Assembly: GCF_000236685.1 (NCBI RefSeq)
Contig: NC_016633.1
Span: 682,001 to 746,000, forward strand
Direction: 5' to 3'
Origin: Sphaerochaeta pleomorpha str. Grapes
GTDB taxonomy: Bacteria; Spirochaetota; Spirochaetia; Sphaerochaetales; Sphaerochaetaceae
DNA length: 64,000 nt
In this document: piece after piece, positions 15,081 to 22,267 of the stretch
Layout of the letters: every line of letters starts with the position of its first letter
How positions within the stretch are numbered: the stretch's first letter is position 1
Notes under the pieces: generated by a model
Seen by the model: only the letters and a program-made list of their open reading frames with translations
Databases searched by the model: none
Told to the model about the DNA's origin: nothing
Program-made: the position numbers and the translations under genes

Positions 15081-15108
15081 AAGAGATAGTTTGGATAGCG
15101 GAGGCGTC

Positions 15109-15582
15109 ATGATAGAAAAATACGGGCTGGCTCTCCTTTGCCTGCTCCTCAATTTCCTTGCTTTTACGGCATGTCTGCGGTTTCTATTCTCCCGCCAGGG
15201 ATTCTATTGGGTAGTACCGTTGCTGGTCACCCTCTTTTTGATCTGGCCAAATGCACAGACTCTTTATGCTATTGCCTCCCAGCCAAAGGGAATTGCCACT
15301 ACCTTTAATCTAAAGGAATTCCAACCGGTTATGCTATCCCTGTTCTGGTACACGATGATAGTGACCTTTCATTATGCCCTCAAGAAAACCGTTACCAGCA
15401 ATTACCACCGCGAACAGGTCAAAAAAAATCTCCATGAGGCCCGCTACCAGCAGAAAGTCGAAACAGCGACCTATGAGCGGAGAATCGCCCGCCAGAAAAA
15501 CTACTACAGCAAGGCACCTGCCAGGGTTCCTGTAACAAATACGTACAGCCAGTACTGGACAGACCTGTTCGACCAATTCTGA
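15109..15582 (+). CDS. Small membrane protein of unknown function
   Basis: A 157-residue protein that I do not recognise. It has three likely membrane helices (about residues 5-25, 32-50 and 75-95), then a charged, Lys/Arg/Gln-rich cytoplasmic tail with tyrosines and a probable short coiled coil (about 100-130). The ATG at 15109 is preceded by GGAGG; a TTG 18 bases upstream is not supported. Its stop codon overlaps the aroK start, so it is the first gene of the aroK-aroC-XPB operon. Nothing in the sequence suggests an enzymatic function. Confidence 0.7.
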   Translation: MIEKYGLALLCLLLNFLAFTACLRFLFSRQGFYWVVPLLVTLFLIWPNAQTLYAIASQPKGIATTFNLKEFQPVMLSLFWYTMIVTFHYALKKTVTSNYHREQVKKNLHEARYQQKVETATYERRIARQKNYYSKAPARVPVTNTYSQYWTDLFDQF

Positions 15583-16103
15583 TGATGAAAGAATACCTCT
15601 TCTTCTGTGGAATAAAACATTGCGGCAAAACAACACTGGGAAAAATCATTGCAGACATGATGGGATGCAAATGCATAGACAATGACGACCTTGCCTATGC
15701 CCTCATGGAAGGCTATCCATCCATCCGTACATTTTTCCGGGAACAGGGAAAACAGGCTTTCATGGAGAAGGAAGTGGAAGGTTTGCGTTTGTTCCTCCAA
15801 GAAAACAAGGAACCTTGCATCGTCAGTCTCGGCGGGGGTGCCTGTGACAACGAACCTTTGATGGAGCTGATCAAATACTATGGCAAGAGCGTATACTTGA
15901 AGGTCAGTGAACAAGTCCTGTTGAAACGCATTCTCGTAGACGGGGTTCCTCCCTTCCTTGATGTTTCCGATCCGAAAGGTTCCTTCTCCCGCCTGTATGC
16001 CATTCGAAATGAATGCTATGGCAAAAAATGTGACATTGTGGTAAACTTGCCTGATTATCCTGATGTTCAGGACACGGCAAGGTACCTCTTTGCCAGATTA
16101 TAG
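15582..16103 (+). CDS. aroK: Shikimate kinase
   Basis: A 173-residue kinase that phosphorylates shikimate at the 3-OH, the step before EPSP synthase. The P-loop is GIKHCGKTT (about residues 10-18), followed by the substrate-binding DNDDLAYAL region (Asp of the shikimate site) and SLGGGACDN, equivalent to the GGG motif. The Arg that normally follows the P-loop strand is less obvious than in E. coli AroK. The ATG overlaps the upstream stop codon (TGATG), with a second ATG immediately after. It is followed after 12 bases by aroC, supporting the pathway assignment. Confidence 0.88.
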   Translation: MMKEYLFFCGIKHCGKTTLGKIIADMMGCKCIDNDDLAYALMEGYPSIRTFFREQGKQAFMEKEVEGLRLFLQENKEPCIVSLGGGACDNEPLMELIKYYGKSVYLKVSEQVLLKRILVDGVPPFLDVSDPKGSFSRLYAIRNECYGKKCDIVVNLPDYPDVQDTARYLFARL

Positions 16104-16115
16104 GTAGGAGTTTTT

Positions 16116-17168
16116 ATGGGCCACAACAGTTTTGGTTCGGCACTCACTGTCACCACGTTCGGGGAATCCCATGGCGAAGGGCTCGGGGTGGTGATTGATG
16201 GCATTGAGGCGGGGATCAAGTTGGATTGCGGTGCAATCCAGACAGAAATGGATCGCCGGAGGCCCGGCTCAAACCCGCTTGGCACGAAACGTAATGAGAA
16301 AGATACCGTCACTATACTCTCTGGTCTTTACCAGGGATTGACTACAGGAACACCGCTTACCCTTGTATTATTTAACAATGACCAGCATTCCTCAGACTAC
16401 GTTGAACTGGAAAAGGTTTACAGGCCTGGCCATGCAGATTGGACGTTCGAACAAAAATTCGGCATTCGTGACGTACGGGGCGGAGGCCGTTCCTCTGGCC
16501 GGGAAACAAGCGCCAGGGTTGCTGCTGGGGCAGTTGCCAGACAAGTACTGGAAAGCAAGGGGATTAAAATCTTTGCCGGAACCGTTCAAGTGGGTTCTGT
16601 AGTTGCTGAGCAGAGAAACTGGGAGGAATCCGACAATTTCCTTCGTTGCCCCGACCGTTCGGCTGCTGTGAAAATGGAAGCTCTGATAGAACAGGTCAGA
16701 AGTGAACAGGATAGCATCGGCGGGATTATCGAGTGTCGTGCACAAGGAGTACCTGCAGGACTAGGCGAACCTGTGTTTGATAAACTGGACGCCCTGCTTG
16801 CCCATGCGCTCATGAGTATAGGGGCGGTAAAAGGAGTTCAAATCGGAGACGGTTTTTCCTGCGCCTCAATGCGAGGAAGCCAGTGCAACGACCAGCGCGA
16901 TCGCAATGGGTTTTTATCAAACCATGCCGGAGGAATCCTTGGCGGCATCTCCAGCGGGCAGGAAATCATCCTGCAGGCTGCAGTAAAACCCACCCCGTCG
17001 ATTTCCCTCAAACAGAAAACAGTCGATACCGATAATTGCGAACGCATATTGGAGATAAAGGGCCGCCATGACCCCTGCATCTGCCCAAGGGCCGTGGTAG
17101 TCGTTGAATCTATGGTTGCCCTTACGCTTCTCGACCTATTCTATTGCGCATTCGGAAGGCAAAAATGA
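16116..17168 (+). CDS. aroC: Chorismate synthase
   Basis: A 350-residue flavin-dependent enzyme that converts EPSP to chorismate, the branch point of aromatic amino acid synthesis. Signature segments are FGESHGEGLGVVIDG near the N-terminus, RPGHADW in the middle, and DVRGGGRSSGRETSARVAAGA, all typical of the family. TAGGAG lies upstream of the ATG. The last codons overlap the helicase start as ATGA. It belongs with aroK and the nearby fused aroDE to a shikimate cluster. Confidence 0.97.
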   Translation: MGHNSFGSALTVTTFGESHGEGLGVVIDGIEAGIKLDCGAIQTEMDRRRPGSNPLGTKRNEKDTVTILSGLYQGLTTGTPLTLVLFNNDQHSSDYVELEKVYRPGHADWTFEQKFGIRDVRGGGRSSGRETSARVAAGAVARQVLESKGIKIFAGTVQVGSVVAEQRNWEESDNFLRCPDRSAAVKMEALIEQVRSEQDSIGGIIECRAQGVPAGLGEPVFDKLDALLAHALMSIGAVKGVQIGDGFSCASMRGSQCNDQRDRNGFLSNHAGGILGGISSGQEIILQAAVKPTPSISLKQKTVDTDNCERILEIKGRHDPCICPRAVVVVESMVALTLLDLFYCAFGRQK

Positions 17169-18826
17169 ACGATAAACCACTCATAGTCCAAAGTGACAAA
17201 ACAATGCTTTTGGACGTTCATCACAGTGAGGCTGAAGCCTGTAGGGCCGATTTGGTACGATTCTGTGAACTTATAAAAAGCCCGGAGCATGTCCACACCT
17301 ATGCCTTGAGCGCCATTTCCCTCTGGAATGCTGCATCTAGCGGGGTAACAAGCGAGGAAATCTGCGAAAAACTCACGTTCTGGTCGCGATTCCCTATCAG
17401 TGAAAGCGTACTGTTCTATATCAATGACATAGCCTCCCGTTTTGGAAAGGTAGTACTTACCGAGAGCGAAGACCCTCAGTATTACCAGCTCGAGGTAAAA
17501 ACCGAGAGAATCCGTAGCGAGATTATGGCCAGAAAAGCAATCGCGAAACTCATGATTGTAAAAAGCAACCGTTCTTTCCTCATTGAGAAATACAATCGGG
17601 GTGAGGTCAAACTCCAACTGATCAAGATGGGATATCCCGTTGACGACAGGATTGTCCTTGAGAAGGGAATCCCTGTTGAAATGGCAATGTGCGAAAAGAC
17701 AAAGGGGGGAAAAACCTTCAGTGTTCGTCCATACCAGACCCAGGCAGCCCAGGCTCTGCTCGGGGACCAAGGGCCAGGTTGTGGCTATGGCACAATCGTC
17801 CTCCCCTGTGGTTCAGGGAAAACAGTAGTCGGCATGACCATCATGAGCCAGCTCAAGACCCGTACCCTCATTGTTACGACCAACGTTGCGGCTGTCCACC
17901 AGTGGATTTCTGAAATCCTCGACAAGATGACTTTGACACAACAACAGATCGGAGAATACACCGGGGAAAAGAAAGACCCCAGGGAAGTAACTGTCTGTAC
18001 CTACCAGGTACTCACCTATCGCCCGGATAAGGATGGACCGTTCCCGCACCTCGAGCTTTTGACAAAAGGCCAATGGGGCCTGATTATCTACGACGAAGTA
18101 CATATGCTCCCTGCCCCGGTATTCAAGATTACCGCGGAATTGCAGGCAGTGTACCGTGTCGGCCTAACAGCTACCCTTGTCCGTGAAGATGGCCGGGAAG
18201 ACGAGGTATTCTCTCTGGTAGGGCCAAAACGATTTGATGTTCCCTGGAATGAATTGCAGCAGCAGGGTTTCATCGCAACAGCCTATTGCAGCGAGATCCG
18301 CCTGGATCTACCCACCGATATGGAAATCCCCTATGCAATAGCAAACAAACGGGAAAAATATCGCATTGCCAGCGAGAACCCCTTGAAACTGGATGTGGTA
18401 AAAGGATTGGTTGCACGGCATCCCGATGACTACATCCTGATTATCGGGCAATATATCAAGCAATTGGAAAGCATTGCCGCTGAGTTCAAGCTCCCCATTA
18501 TTACCGGAAGCACTCCAAATGCAAAAAGGGAGGAACTGTACAGGGCTTTTAAAGAAGGGGAATCCCACATCCTGGTGGTAAGCAAGGTGGCGAACTTCGC
18601 CATTGACCTTCCTGACGCCTCCGTTGCCATTCAGGTTTCAGGGACCTTCGGATCCCGATCAGAGGAAGCCCAGCGCCTGGGGAGAATCCTCAGGCCTAAA
18701 AACCGTTCGAGTTTCTTCTACTCGGTAGTTACCCGCTATTCCACGGAAGAGGAATTTGCGGCAAATCGTCAAAAATTCCTTGCAGAGCAAGGCTATTCCT
18801 ATGATATAGAGGTATGGGAAAATTGA
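17165..18826 (+). CDS. XPB/ERCC3-type DNA helicase
   Basis: A 553-residue superfamily-2 helicase of the XPB/Rad25 group. An N-terminal region of about 190 residues is followed by RPYQTQAAQALL (Q-like motif), Walker A LPCGSGKTVVG, IIYDEVHMLP (motif II, DEVH), GLTATLVREDGRE (motif III plus the RED motif specific to XPB), and the C-terminal QRLGRILRPK (motif VI). In eukaryotes XPB opens DNA in TFIIH; bacterial versions unwind 3' to 5'. The ATG at 17165 overlaps the aroC stop codon. It is followed by a gene of a type that accompanies bacterial XPBs, suggesting a two-protein repair unit. Confidence 0.92.
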   Translation: MNDKPLIVQSDKTMLLDVHHSEAEACRADLVRFCELIKSPEHVHTYALSAISLWNAASSGVTSEEICEKLTFWSRFPISESVLFYINDIASRFGKVVLTESEDPQYYQLEVKTERIRSEIMARKAIAKLMIVKSNRSFLIEKYNRGEVKLQLIKMGYPVDDRIVLEKGIPVEMAMCEKTKGGKTFSVRPYQTQAAQALLGDQGPGCGYGTIVLPCGSGKTVVGMTIMSQLKTRTLIVTTNVAAVHQWISEILDKMTLTQQQIGEYTGEKKDPREVTVCTYQVLTYRPDKDGPFPHLELLTKGQWGLIIYDEVHMLPAPVFKITAELQAVYRVGLTATLVREDGREDEVFSLVGPKRFDVPWNELQQQGFIATAYCSEIRLDLPTDMEIPYAIANKREKYRIASENPLKLDVVKGLVARHPDDYILIIGQYIKQLESIAAEFKLPIITGSTPNAKREELYRAFKEGESHILVVSKVANFAIDLPDASVAIQVSGTFGSRSEEAQRLGRILRPKNRSSFFYSVVTRYSTEEEFAANRQKFLAEQGYSYDIEVWEN

Positions 18827-20721
18827 CAGACGTAGAAAAAGAATTATTTAAAAAGATTATCAGCAGGTATTCGGAAGATAACTATTTCTATCTTGCAAAG
18901 AATTATCTCGGCCTTATCCCTACCCCGTTCCATAAGCCGGCCTTGACCACGAAACTGTGCAATTTCTTTTCCCAGGCAGCCATACAGGACAAGATAATCG
19001 ACTTGCTTGATGAACTTGATTGTTTTATCCTGAGCTACATCAAACTCGCCGGACCGGTCAAAGCCGAACAGGTCACCACGCTTCTCAAAGCAAAAGGAAG
19101 CTATGGCACCCTGCTGAGACGGGTAGCAAACCTGCAGGAGCGGATGATTCTGCTCAATGAAAACGGCAAATTGATTTTCAATCCCCTGCTTGAATCCAGA
19201 CTGAACGAATTCTCCAGCCTCAAACCTCTTTTGGGAAATGTAAAGGGCAAAGCCCACAATGGGCCCTATTGCTCAGGTGAGTTTCTCCGGGCCTATCTTT
19301 CTTTGGTCGACAAAGAGGCCAAGGTTGGGTTCAAAGACGAATACGGGTCTTTTTTTCCAGCCTATAACCAAGAACAGCTGAAACAGATTTTTTCCCGTCT
19401 CGGGGAACTCTTTCTTGCTATGGGTGTCTTGGAAACAGGAAAAGAGAAAAGAATATCGATAGATTTTGAAAAAGCAGACAGACTGCTTGCTCTCAATGAC
19501 CGGCAGCTCTTGTGCTTCCTCCTTGCCTGGGAATTGCCGGATAAGGCAAAAAGCAACGCAGTAGGTTTTGCAAACAACCTGATAGAAGTAATTTCCAGCA
19601 TCGGCTCCTTTGATACCAGTTCATTGAAACTGCTGGTAAAGACCATGGCCCTCAAATATGGCATTGAATATGAATCATCCATCCTTGACTGTCTCAGCAC
19701 CTGGGGAATCGTAACCCTGGATGGAGTCTGGCACGCCAATACCATAGCAGAGGAATTCGAGCGATCAACATTGGTAATGGATAGTGACCATACCGTTAGC
19801 TATAACGGTACCTGCCCCCCTGAAGACATTCTCTATCGCTTTTCAGACCTGTGTATCCTCGACCGGCAGACAAGTTATAAGGTATCGCCCCAGAGTTTCT
19901 GCCGTGCCTTGGATAATGGGCTTCCCTTCGATGCTATCAAAAACTACCTGTTGCAGAACAGTTATCCTTCCATGAGCCAATCGTTGGTGAAAATCCTCGA
20001 AATAACGTTCGAACGCTATAGTCAGGTTTCGATTTATGATGGCATTGTGCTGTGTACCTCAGGAAGGGTCGAGCGATTGATCGAGAGTCTGGAAAGCCTG
20101 CAGGAACATTGCCTGAAAAAACTTTCCGATGGCGTTTTTCTTATGAAGCGCTCAAGCGAGAACACCTGGAGGCAGATTCTGGTCTCATCAGGATCACTCG
20201 TTCCCGCAACCATTGCCAAAGAGCAGGTGGAATTAATCCAAAAGGAAGACCATCCCCTGTTCAACGAACTGATACAGCTCAGCCATATCGGCAAAGAAAA
20301 ACTCACCATGCAGGTAGAGCGGCAGGAAAAACAGATGGATAGCGATACCTCAATCCGTGAGGTTATCGAAAACGCAAACCTTACCCCTTCCCAGCGGCAG
20401 GATCTTCTCCAAAGATATGACGCGAGGATGATCCTCAGCACAACGCAGATTATTGGCCAGATTGTAAATGGAGTCATAGAGGCCGGAGGATTCGACTACC
20501 AGGGAAAGGTCAGCCTGTGCAGGCAAGCTGCAGGAAAAGACAATATAGCACTCCAGTTGCAGCTGACAGACCAGGAATTGGTAGTTCAGGCTCTGGAAGT
20601 TGCCTATACCCCCCAAAAAGAAGCCCTGTTGAAAGCTGCAGTCATGCCTACCATGGAAGTGAAAATAATTCCGGTAAGCAAGATTTTCATGGTAAGGCAA
20701 CTTCGCTACTATTTGTGCTGA
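18814..20721 (+). CDS. Helicase-associated protein, XPB partner
   Basis: A 635-residue soluble protein with no helicase ATPase motifs. The C-terminal third (about 390-470, KNYLLQNSYPSMSQSLVKIL ... YDGIVLCTSGRVERLI) looks like the helicase-associated Helicase_C_3 domain, and the N-terminal part contains repeated winged-helix-like segments. From memory, mycobacteria also carry such a gene next to their XPB, and archaeal XPB works with the nuclease Bax1; a comparable partnership is inferred. I see no recognisable nuclease motif. The ATG lies 13 bases inside the helicase gene after AGAGGT, so the two are translationally coupled. The end is 2 bases from the convergent aroDE. Confidence 0.72.
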   Translation: MGKLTDVEKELFKKIISRYSEDNYFYLAKNYLGLIPTPFHKPALTTKLCNFFSQAAIQDKIIDLLDELDCFILSYIKLAGPVKAEQVTTLLKAKGSYGTLLRRVANLQERMILLNENGKLIFNPLLESRLNEFSSLKPLLGNVKGKAHNGPYCSGEFLRAYLSLVDKEAKVGFKDEYGSFFPAYNQEQLKQIFSRLGELFLAMGVLETGKEKRISIDFEKADRLLALNDRQLLCFLLAWELPDKAKSNAVGFANNLIEVISSIGSFDTSSLKLLVKTMALKYGIEYESSILDCLSTWGIVTLDGVWHANTIAEEFERSTLVMDSDHTVSYNGTCPPEDILYRFSDLCILDRQTSYKVSPQSFCRALDNGLPFDAIKNYLLQNSYPSMSQSLVKILEITFERYSQVSIYDGIVLCTSGRVERLIESLESLQEHCLKKLSDGVFLMKRSSENTWRQILVSSGSLVPATIAKEQVELIQKEDHPLFNELIQLSHIGKEKLTMQVERQEKQMDSDTSIREVIENANLTPSQRQDLLQRYDARMILSTTQIIGQIVNGVIEAGGFDYQGKVSLCRQAAGKDNIALQLQLTDQELVVQALEVAYTPQKEALLKAAVMPTMEVKIIPVSKIFMVRQLRYYLC

Positions 20722-20723
20722 GC

Positions 20724-22217
20724 CTATAGTTCGGGATGTATCCAATGGGGATAATGATACCCGGTAAAAGCCTCAAACTGCAGTTTCCCTTGTTCCATGA
20801 GCATGTCTCTCCCTTGGACAACAGTGCAACCTGCAGCGATTGCCCGCTTGAGAAATACGGTTTCACGGGGATGGTAAATGAGTTCATATACGAGTTCATT
20901 CCCTAAAAACCGCAAGGCTGGTACAGGGTCCTCTGTATCGTTGGGGGTCATGCCTACGCTGGTCGTCTGCACCACCAGGTCAACCTTACCGCTGTAACGC
21001 GAACAATTCTCCAAGGAATCATAGGAGCTCATCGTCTCGGAAGCGATTGATTTCGCATGGTCAAGGCTCCTGTTTATGACAGTCACTTTGACACCATGGT
21101 TGTGAAGGGCCCAGATTACCGCCCTGCTTGCCCCGCCAGCCCCGATAACCAGGGCGCTGTGGATGGTTCCCTTTGAGACTTCTTCTGCAATGGGGGCAAG
21201 AAACCCATAATAATCGGTATTGGTTCCCTTCCACATATTCTGGATTCTCGTAACTGTATTGCAGGCCCCTATCTGTTTCACCTCGCGTGTTATCCTCCCT
21301 AGATAGGGCTGTACATCACGCTTATGGGGAACGGTTACCGAAAACCCATGGATCTGGAGCATTTCGGCAAGTTTAAAGAATGCGCGCACGGAATCTACCA
21401 GAAACGGCACGTACACTGCATTGTAATGGATTGCCAAAAACCCAGGATTATGAATAAGGGGAGAAGACGTATGATATACCGGATTACCGATAATGCCATA
21501 GATATGCGTCCTGTCGTCAAGTTTATCGCTACGGTACAGCTCACTCATTGTCTGGGCGCTCAACTGACCGGGTGCAGGCACTTTTTCTGAACTGTCGGTA
21601 CAGAAAGTCAGCATCGACCCGCATTTCTTATAAAGAATGCGGGTAGGAATCCCAAAATCCCCCATCCCGATGATGATTTTATCCTTGATCCCCTGCAGTT
21701 CCTGCTGGACCCTGAACAAAGATATTACATCAATCATACTTTTCGGGGTAACCGCAATCTTGGGGATATCCCCTTTTGCAGCGAGTTTGGAGATGTGCCC
21801 GTAGATATCGGCAGGCACTTTCTCGAAATCATGGTAAGACCTGATAATCTTGATATTTCTCATCCTGAGCGAGGACTCAAGGTCGACTTTGATTTCCGTT
21901 CCGCTTTCCTTGAATTTCAAATCACATTTTTTGATATCTTCTTCAATATCTACATAGGCAAAATCACCTTTTGCCGTATTGTAGAGCAACTGGAGGCGTT
22001 GCTTTTCACCAAGGGTACAGCGCCCCCCGTCACTTACCCGCCTGAGCGTGAGAATGACTGGAATGTCCACCATATTGGGAAAAACCGCGGCTTCCTCTTG
22101 TTCTTCAGGATTTAGGTAGTCCAAGCGCAATTCCGCAAGGGATATCCACTTTCGGTTTTTTACGACCAGGGCCCGGTCTTCTTCTAGGGTAGAACCGGTT
22201 AGCGTTAGGCAAAGCAT
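20724..22217 (-). CDS. aroDE: Bifunctional 3-dehydroquinate dehydratase / shikimate dehydrogenase
   Basis: A 497-residue fusion. Residues 1-215 are a type I dehydroquinase, with the Schiff-base lysine in PKIAVTPKS and an upstream ELRLDYL strand. Residues 235-497 are an AroE dehydrogenase, with SSPLIHN, SVTVPHK (catalytic Lys), NTDYYGF (catalytic Asp) and the nucleotide loop GAGGAS. The fusion converts 3-dehydroquinate to shikimate, feeding the aroK and aroC products encoded nearby. Fusion in this order is seen in plants and some bacteria. The ATG at 22217 follows AGGAGG; the longer frame runs into the promoter region. Divergent from the ABC-F gene. Confidence 0.95.
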   Translation of the reverse strand: MLCLTLTGSTLEEDRALVVKNRKWISLAELRLDYLNPEEQEEAAVFPNMVDIPVILTLRRVSDGGRCTLGEKQRLQLLYNTAKGDFAYVDIEEDIKKCDLKFKESGTEIKVDLESSLRMRNIKIIRSYHDFEKVPADIYGHISKLAAKGDIPKIAVTPKSMIDVISLFRVQQELQGIKDKIIIGMGDFGIPTRILYKKCGSMLTFCTDSSEKVPAPGQLSAQTMSELYRSDKLDDRTHIYGIIGNPVYHTSSPLIHNPGFLAIHYNAVYVPFLVDSVRAFFKLAEMLQIHGFSVTVPHKRDVQPYLGRITREVKQIGACNTVTRIQNMWKGTNTDYYGFLAPIAEEVSKGTIHSALVIGAGGASRAVIWALHNHGVKVTVINRSLDHAKSIASETMSSYDSLENCSRYSGKVDLVVQTTSVGMTPNDTEDPVPALRFLGNELVYELIYHPRETVFLKRAIAAGCTVVQGRDMLMEQGKLQFEAFTGYHYPHWIHPEL

Positions 22218-22251
22218 CGTGGACCTCCTGAACTTGGGTGGATTGTCACCG

Positions 22252-22267
22252 AACACATGCATGTGTT
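22252..22267. promoter_or_regulatory. Perfect 16-bp palindrome between aroDE and the ABC-F gene
   Basis: AACACATGCATGTGTT is a perfect palindrome. It overlaps the expected aroDE start point and the -35 region of the divergent ABC-F promoter, a good position for an operator serving both. The regulator is unknown. Confidence 0.45.

Follow-up and report, generated by a model that had tools for sequence, protein, structure and literature searches.

A p52/Tfb2-like partner of the XPB helicase in Sphaerochaeta pleomorpha, a probable bacterial counterpart of a TFIIH subunit

In human and yeast TFIIH, the helicase XPB is held and driven by p52 (Tfb2 in yeast), a protein reported as not found in bacteria. 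The N-terminal domain (NTD) of XPB and a p52 'clutch' of the same fold are described to form a pseudo-symmetric dimer that recruits XPB; p52 stimulates the XPB ATPase, the p52 module after the clutch is the one that p8 pairs with, and the XPB-p52 contact matters in xeroderma pigmentosum (XP) and trichothiodystrophy (TTD) (PMC6422496). The function of XPB in archaea and bacteria is called 'more elusive' in the available text of a 2026 review (PMC13024598). No later report of a bacterial p52 was found in the open-licence literature, preprints not covered. Here, two overlapping genes of Sphaerochaeta pleomorpha str. Grapes (genome of 3.59 Mb, single contig), xpb and the gene of a partner protein, are characterized. 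They lie in a window of 64,000 nucleotides (NC_016633.1, positions 682,001 to 746,000), to which all feature coordinates given without a locus or genome handle refer. The genes co-occur, p52 is the best match of the partner in sequence and in fold, and the modelled domains follow the p52 order. We consider it likely that p52/Tfb2 has a bacterial counterpart, and most likely a homologue, in this partner, which would form a minimal two-protein XPB-p52 lobe with XPB and work as proposed below.

Sequence and predicted fold of the partner

17165-18826, + strand: xpb, XPB/ERCC3/RAD25-type superfamily 2 (SF2) helicase, 553 amino acids (NF045503, PF13625, PF04851, PF16203)
17180-17560, + strand: XPB NTD (PF13625, E 4.4e-25)
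18814-20721, + strand: partner, p52/Tfb2-like protein, 635 amino acids (profile and fold matches to p52)
19012-19737, + strand: winged-helix array, partner residues 67-308 by model (AlphaFold2 model of residues 1-308)
19759-20028, + strand: predicted clutch (HubA) domain, residues 316-405 (XPB NTD fold; Tfb2 sequence match)
20026-20193, + strand: p8-pairing-type module, residues 405-460 (p52 alignments; profiles ranking Tfb5)
20479-20712, + strand: predicted WYL-like (Sm-fold) barrel, residues 556-633 (structural matches by VIA)

The helicase scores 820 bits against the NCBIfam model NF045503, 'DNA repair helicase XPB' (cut-off 610). A Pfam search placed PF13625 at its N-terminus and PF16203 at its C-terminus, and the patterns GSGKT, DEVH, TAT, RED and QRLGR were all found. 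The protein combines the NTD, two RecA domains, the RED motif and the equivalog score of XPB. Its closest PDB sequence is yeast Rad25 (258 bits), and its closest solved relatives are eukaryotic XPBs; the best of the shorter PDB XPB entries, which we take to be archaeal-type, reached 142 bits. The partner starts at the ATG at 18814 and overlaps the end of xpb by 13 nt. A pattern scan for Walker A, RED and motif VI found none of them in the partner, while residues 338-408 match PF13625 at E 9.7e-6 (26 bits, below the Pfam cut-off of 34.2). Relatives back this weak match: of the 19 partners in alignment A1, 18 hit PF13625 with E values of 0.1 or lower (best 1.1e-11). The original prediction, an XPB-type helicase with RED motif and SF2 core followed by a protein with an overlapping start, no ATPase motifs and a helicase-associated region, is borne out in each of these parts. 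PF13625 is named 'helicase C-terminal domain' in Pfam, yet is N-terminal in the XPB of the window. Since this family occurs in the XPB NTD and in the partner, and the two clutch folds pair in TFIIH, p52 was taken as hypothesis for the partner.

Profile searches covered 177,635 PDB sequences. The three best matches of the A1 profile were yeast Tfb2 (E 1.7e-6, 1.8e-6 and 3.1e-6), followed by the XPB NTD (E 0.003 and weaker) and human p52 (0.0065 and 0.007), which puts Tfb2 11 bits ahead of the XPB NTD. In the alignment, the profile segment YeitkesilrAlDsgl stands opposite GQITRESIRRALTNGI of Tfb2, with YKLTAYSLYAAVSVGL at that place in XPB. The ITKES helix of the profile thereby pairs with ITRES of Tfb2, XPB having LTAYS. 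Partner residue D323, at least 90% conserved, aligns with Tfb2 E342 (counted by hand). Changes of E342 are described as lethal and not relieved by TFB6, and most interface mutants as TFB6-independent (PMC9557730), from which we infer that E342 is an interface residue.

The Pfam Tfb2 model weakly matched three of the 19 A1 members (best E 0.0075). In alignment A8 (15 unlinked partners from other spirochaete families), one member had a sub-threshold match to Tfb2 (E 2e-6) that is stronger than its match to PF13625, and one matched Tfb5 at 0.0062, likewise below the Pfam cut-off. Among 197 spirochaete genomes, eight match the Tfb2 model at E 0.001, the genome of the window not among them. These matches come from open frames of 582-677 amino acids and all lie within profile positions 233-357; the three checked (G064, G094, G117) overlap PF13625 places. 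A profile-profile comparison of A8 with alignment A3 (25 sequences) aligned 263 columns (A3 180-447, E 8.8e-13), that is, the end of the winged-helix array, the clutch and part of the next module.

An AlphaFold2 model of the partner, built with 25 sequences, reached a predicted local distance difference test (pLDDT) of 85.1 and a predicted TM-score (pTM) of 0.78. In a Foldseek search of 350,542 PDB chains, ranks 1-22 were all chains of TFIIH entries (best E 5.7e-10). Chains 7o4i_2, 8ebt_D and 6trs are named p52/Tfb2; the rest of these ranks were read as p52 from chain label and length. Structural alignment with VIA-align gave Z 7.3-11.8 for p52 chains, the longest alignment pairing model residues 20-462 with p52 17-461. 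A clutch (HubA) domain with the XPB NTD fold is predicted: model residues 316-402 superpose on the human XPB NTD with Z 11.6 and a root-mean-square deviation (rmsd) of 2.2 Å over 87 residues. Folded alone, residues 1-308 gave a pLDDT of 88.6. The top Foldseek match was 6tru_A, which comprises the N-terminal half of p52 (E 8.7e-3, probability 0.96); 6tru_B came fourth (E 0.17), and no chain reached E 0.001. This match of the clutch-free model to p52 is supportive, not decisive.

A p8-dimerisation module directly follows the clutch, recognised through the right protein at modest significance. The p52 alignments by VIA reach model residue 458-462 (e.g. 6trs_B, 314-460, 141 residues at 7.7 Å). The five best PDB sequences of module profile A7, which includes small Deinococcus proteins, were yeast Tfb5 (p8) at E 0.0064-0.01; profile A9, built without those proteins, ranked yeast Tfb5 in the same five places at E 0.19-0.29. 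The small proteins have 99-115 amino acids and are encoded between xpb and the partner gene on Deinococcus plasmids:

L024, 6744-7043: small gene between xpb and partner
L028, 6737-7084: small gene between xpb and partner
L034, 6741-7070: small gene between xpb and partner

They carry a basic N-terminal tail, with a very weak AT-hook match in L028 and L034. Their profile aligned with the partner module at E 7e-4 and a probability of 27% (hhalign). In A7, the L024 protein shares 27% identity with the module of locus L043, which is related to the window, and 14% with that of the window itself. Profiles of the three Deinococcus proteins alone found nothing relevant in PDB. Their sequences point to a p8-like C-terminal part, a lead rather than proof. 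In Actinomyces oris, too, a 99-amino-acid gene separates XPB and partner (L023, 4205-4504); its product by eye appears small and membrane-like, not p8-like.

A WYL/Sm-like barrel is predicted near the C-terminus. It superposes on the WYL domains of PafBC, BrxR, CapW and DriD (Z 7.6-10.0, rmsd 2.3-3.0 Å, 69-74 residues); the best Sm protein reached Z 8.1 by VIA. The sequence profile of the WYL-like domain found no WYL chain in PDB, and Pfam gave no WYL match in the partner of the window. K565, K623 and R628 of the barrel are invariant in A3 and would suit a nucleic-acid ligand. Among distant partners, the WYL profile matched the four that belong to the same class (L114, L116, L118, L119). It found nothing in 16 from spirochaete families further away, whose sequences, like p52, stop shortly after the p8-type module. 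In L023 and L035, both actinobacterial loci, a WYL-like C-terminus was seen by eye that the profile misses.

Several results weigh against homology with p52. The cut-off of the Pfam Tfb2 family (PF03849) was reached by none of the 197 spirochaete genomes (best 28.9 versus 34.5 bits), and the partner is therefore called p52-like and a probable homologue, not a Pfam Tfb2 member. The partner of the window has itself diverged at the ITKES letters of the consensus. Against PDB, the A8 profile gave better matches to unrelated winged-helix proteins and to XPB (E 0.03-0.08) than to p52 (0.11), and nothing relevant came up with sequence profiles built from the N-terminal half or the WYL-like domain. 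The latter two profiles recognise four of 27 distant partners, the clutch profile 25. In the fold comparison, Foldseek ranks 1-22 have TM-scores of 0.18-0.28 by query and rmsd values of 10.8-22.1 Å, and most whole-length p52 rows of VIA lie at 15.7-23.5 Å; in the model, domains and domain order agree with p52, while their relative angles do not. For residues 1-308, the best p52 match by VIA (Z 6.8, 136 residues, 4.1 Å) is level with MarR winged helices (best 7.4). Finally, of 25 genomes from other spirochaete families that were inspected closely, 20 carry the second PF13625 gene unlinked to XPB, either on a separate contig or at a distance of over 40 kb.

Occurrence of the pair and its gene neighbourhood

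In a sample of 61 genomes of the order, XPB was found in 57. A protein search detected the partner in 54 of the genomes; in 53 it is adjacent, downstream and on the same strand, and in G053 it lies on another contig, XPB being at a contig end. The three XPB genomes missed by this search have a second PF13625 place just downstream (E 4.9e-13, 9.1e-11 and 3.8e-5). The partner thus accompanies XPB in 57 of 57 XPB-bearing genomes, adjacent in 56, and the pair is real and recurrent. In the named loci, which are partly from the same genomes, XPB lies directly upstream of the partner in 23 of 24, L047 being cut at a contig edge. The close relatives in named records are Sphaerochaeta. Distances between XPB and partner sequences correlate at 0.967 across 21 loci, versus 0.895 and 0.908 with aroC, which agrees with co-evolution of the pair.

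Within the phylum sample (the 197 genomes), PF13625 was found at E 0.001 in 163 genomes, with at least two places in 118 of these (hand count). In 25 genomes of other families, searched at E 0.1, a second PF13625 place was present in 23, near XPB in three. The two genomes without one belong to family f22 (24 genomes in the sample), in which profile A8 revealed a divergent, unlinked partner in nine of nine tested genomes. Loss of the partner in some XPB genomes was considered and rejected on account of the three downstream PF13625 places and these nine f22 genomes. Because the partners were found by PF13625 or profile A8, the earlier absences reflect limits of sensitivity. Against this reading counts the genome G017, in which no XPB was found and which has a weak PF13625 match (C1:43642-43869, within L122, E 0.015) in an open frame of 517 amino acids, perhaps a partner that outlived its helicase; the other three genomes of the order without XPB have no PF13625 match.

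Among 40 XPB loci from outside the order, 15 had a partner nearby by the A1 profile. Other phyla were represented by records of a plasmid collection. Ten bacterial records carry XPB over at least 99% of the query, and in eight of them a clear partner is no more than 5 kb away: three of Deinococcus and one each of Paenibacillus (overlap of XPB and partner 14 nt), Actinomyces, Arthrobacter, Tsukamurella (partner by annotation and A1 profile) and Gloeocapsopsis (PF13625 just under the cut-off). The Nonomuraea record has a weak partial match, and the Nocardia record no partner match near XPB. Of the two outcomes that would have spoken against the original prediction, a partner from an unrelated family and a partner not found beside other bacterial XPB genes, neither occurred.

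Directly after the partner gene, five loci of other spirochaete families carry a gene with NYN and OST-HTH/LOTUS domains, the product of which is a possible nuclease associated with the XPB-p52 pair:

L066, 2915-3811, - strand: NYN + OST-HTH/LOTUS gene
L067, 3074-3874, - strand: NYN + OST-HTH/LOTUS gene
L070, 2629-3408, - strand: NYN + OST-HTH/LOTUS gene
L071, 8948-9724, + strand: NYN + OST-HTH/LOTUS gene
L076, 6534-7334, + strand: NYN + OST-HTH/LOTUS gene

On a Corynebacterium diphtheriae plasmid that also bears predicted resistance genes, an XPB-like gene (L031, 4995-6575) matches no more than two thirds of the query, with an IS3 transposase behind it. XPB is also present on one unannotated fecal scaffold labelled 'Bacteriophage sp.'. 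Viral carriage of the partner and a defence-system role were rejected: a single-protein scan of viral contigs found no relative of the partner, and PADLOC gave no defence-system match for it.

The pair of the window stands among shikimate genes:

15091-15582, + strand: hydrophobic protein, 163 amino acids, without a Pfam match above the cut-off; its last base coincides with the first of aroK
15582-16103, + strand: aroK, shikimate kinase (PF01202), upstream gene of the same run
16116-17168, + strand: aroC, chorismate synthase (PF01264)
20724-22262, - strand: aroD-aroE fusion (PF01487, PF08501)

The ATG of xpb (17165) overlaps the aroC stop by 4 nt (ATGA), and the aroD-aroE fusion is convergent to the partner, 2 nt beyond its end. 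The position after aroK and aroC is as predicted. It is not a one-off: of 24 related loci, 21 have aroC upstream, contig ends truncating two of the remaining three, and all 24 have a convergent aroDE. Among the 40 loci outside the order, aroK and aroC are near xpb only in L098, and L068 and L075 show a weak aroDE match. Common in the order and found in one of 40 loci outside, the setting says little about function; we read it as an inherited operon arrangement of the order without functional link.

Proposed working and rival explanations

In the proposed mechanism, the clutch of the partner would pair with the structurally equivalent XPB NTD as a pseudo-symmetric dimer. The p8-type module would rest on RecA2 of XPB, order the two RecA domains and raise ATPase and translocase activity. 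The winged-helix array and the WYL-like barrel would hold DNA, the barrel probably single-stranded DNA (ssDNA). XPB would thus be switched on at damaged or opened DNA and would pump or twist the duplex, opening a bubble for repair or at a stalled polymerase. The biological role may be DNA repair or rescue of blocked transcription. WYL proteins are described as sensing ssDNA in damage responses, the fold binding ssDNA in DriD and PafBC, and in Pif1 a WYL domain can serve the helicase by holding ssDNA (PMC9964779). A transposon mutant of ercc3 (xpb) of Mycobacterium tuberculosis is listed as depleted under rifampicin (PMC10534295).

Rather more tentatively, and with the balance somewhat against it, the XPB-p52-p8 lobe of TFIIH may exist in bacteria in full, as a module of its own; Deinococcus would encode it in three co-directional genes (XPB, p8-like, p52-like), other bacteria in two. 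This module and the eukaryotic XPB lobe would go back to a common ancestral machine, and some bacterial lineages would have gained a WYL-type ssDNA sensor.

The partner could owe its resemblance to p52 to an independent duplication, in which the clutch was copied from the NTD of a bacterial XPB and joined to unrelated winged helices and barrels; it would pair with XPB as p52 does, without common ancestry with the whole of p52. The XPB NTD is indeed the next-best sequence match (E 0.003) and close to the clutch in fold (Z 11.6), no sequence match was found for the N-terminal half, and winged helices are a widespread fold. The 11 bits by which Tfb2 leads, with the shared ITRES/ITKES helix, the p8/Tfb5-type module after the clutch, in the same place as in p52, and the first rank of 6tru for the clutch-free half make this origin unlikely. 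Very unlikely is a transcription regulator of the WYL type, which would sense ssDNA or a nucleotide and control the operon or a damage regulon with XPB as a client gene. Such a protein would fit the resemblance of the barrel to PafBC, BrxR, CapW and DriD (Z up to 10.0), the several winged helices and the described role of WYL proteins as ssDNA sensors in damage responses. The domain order follows p52, however; it is the clutch by which 25 of 27 distant partners are recognised, and the WYL profile finds nothing in the 16 partners of more distant families.

The original prediction had pointed to Bax1, with which archaeal XPB is described to work; the partner would then be a nuclease used by XPB to cut damaged DNA. 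This already disfavoured analogy did not survive and is barely credible. DUF790 (PF05626), which we take to be Bax1, is absent from all 61 genomes of the order, four of 14 control genomes being positive, and the best matches of the partner are TFIIH p52/Tfb2 instead. No nuclease is among the best 50 matches listed of either fold comparison (Foldseek, VIA), and Bax1 is described to grip the ThM and HD2 regions of XPB, not the NTD. The identity as Bax1 was rejected, PF05626 not being among the three Pfam matches of the partner up to E 10.

With a p52-like partner, bacterial XPB acquires a concrete role that can be tested, and the pair may serve as a two-protein system in which to study the driving of XPB by p52. 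The finding bears on the origin of TFIIH and suggests that the Pfam label 'Helicase conserved C-terminal domain' (PF13625) also takes in a clutch domain not confined to helicases.

Comparison with known systems

The partner resembles p52/Tfb2 (GTF2H4) with p8/Tfb5 in the modelled order winged helices, clutch, p8-type module, in the best profile and fold match and in the acidic clutch residue aligned with Tfb2 E342. It differs in being bacterial and in its greater length, which includes a helical linker and a WYL-like barrel at the C-terminus, and its N-terminal half has diverged too far for sequence detection. Actinobacterial proteins annotated as 'helicase-associated domain-containing protein' likewise have PF13625 in the second half and adjoin XPB, whereas gene order and orientation vary and the proteins of Actinomyces and Arthrobacter are longer. 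Presumably, Rv0862c of M. tuberculosis, a helicase-associated domain protein beside Rv0861c (XPB), is of this kind. The archaeal XPB-Bax1 system shares an XPB with a dedicated partner; Bax1, however, is a nuclease of another family, absent from the 61 genomes of the order. PafBC, DriD, CapW, BrxR and the Pif1-WYL helicases share the fold of the C-terminal barrel. In contrast to the WYL proteins, the barrel of the partner has no sequence-profile match, and unlike in the Pif1-WYL helicases it is carried by the partner of the helicase, not by the helicase itself.

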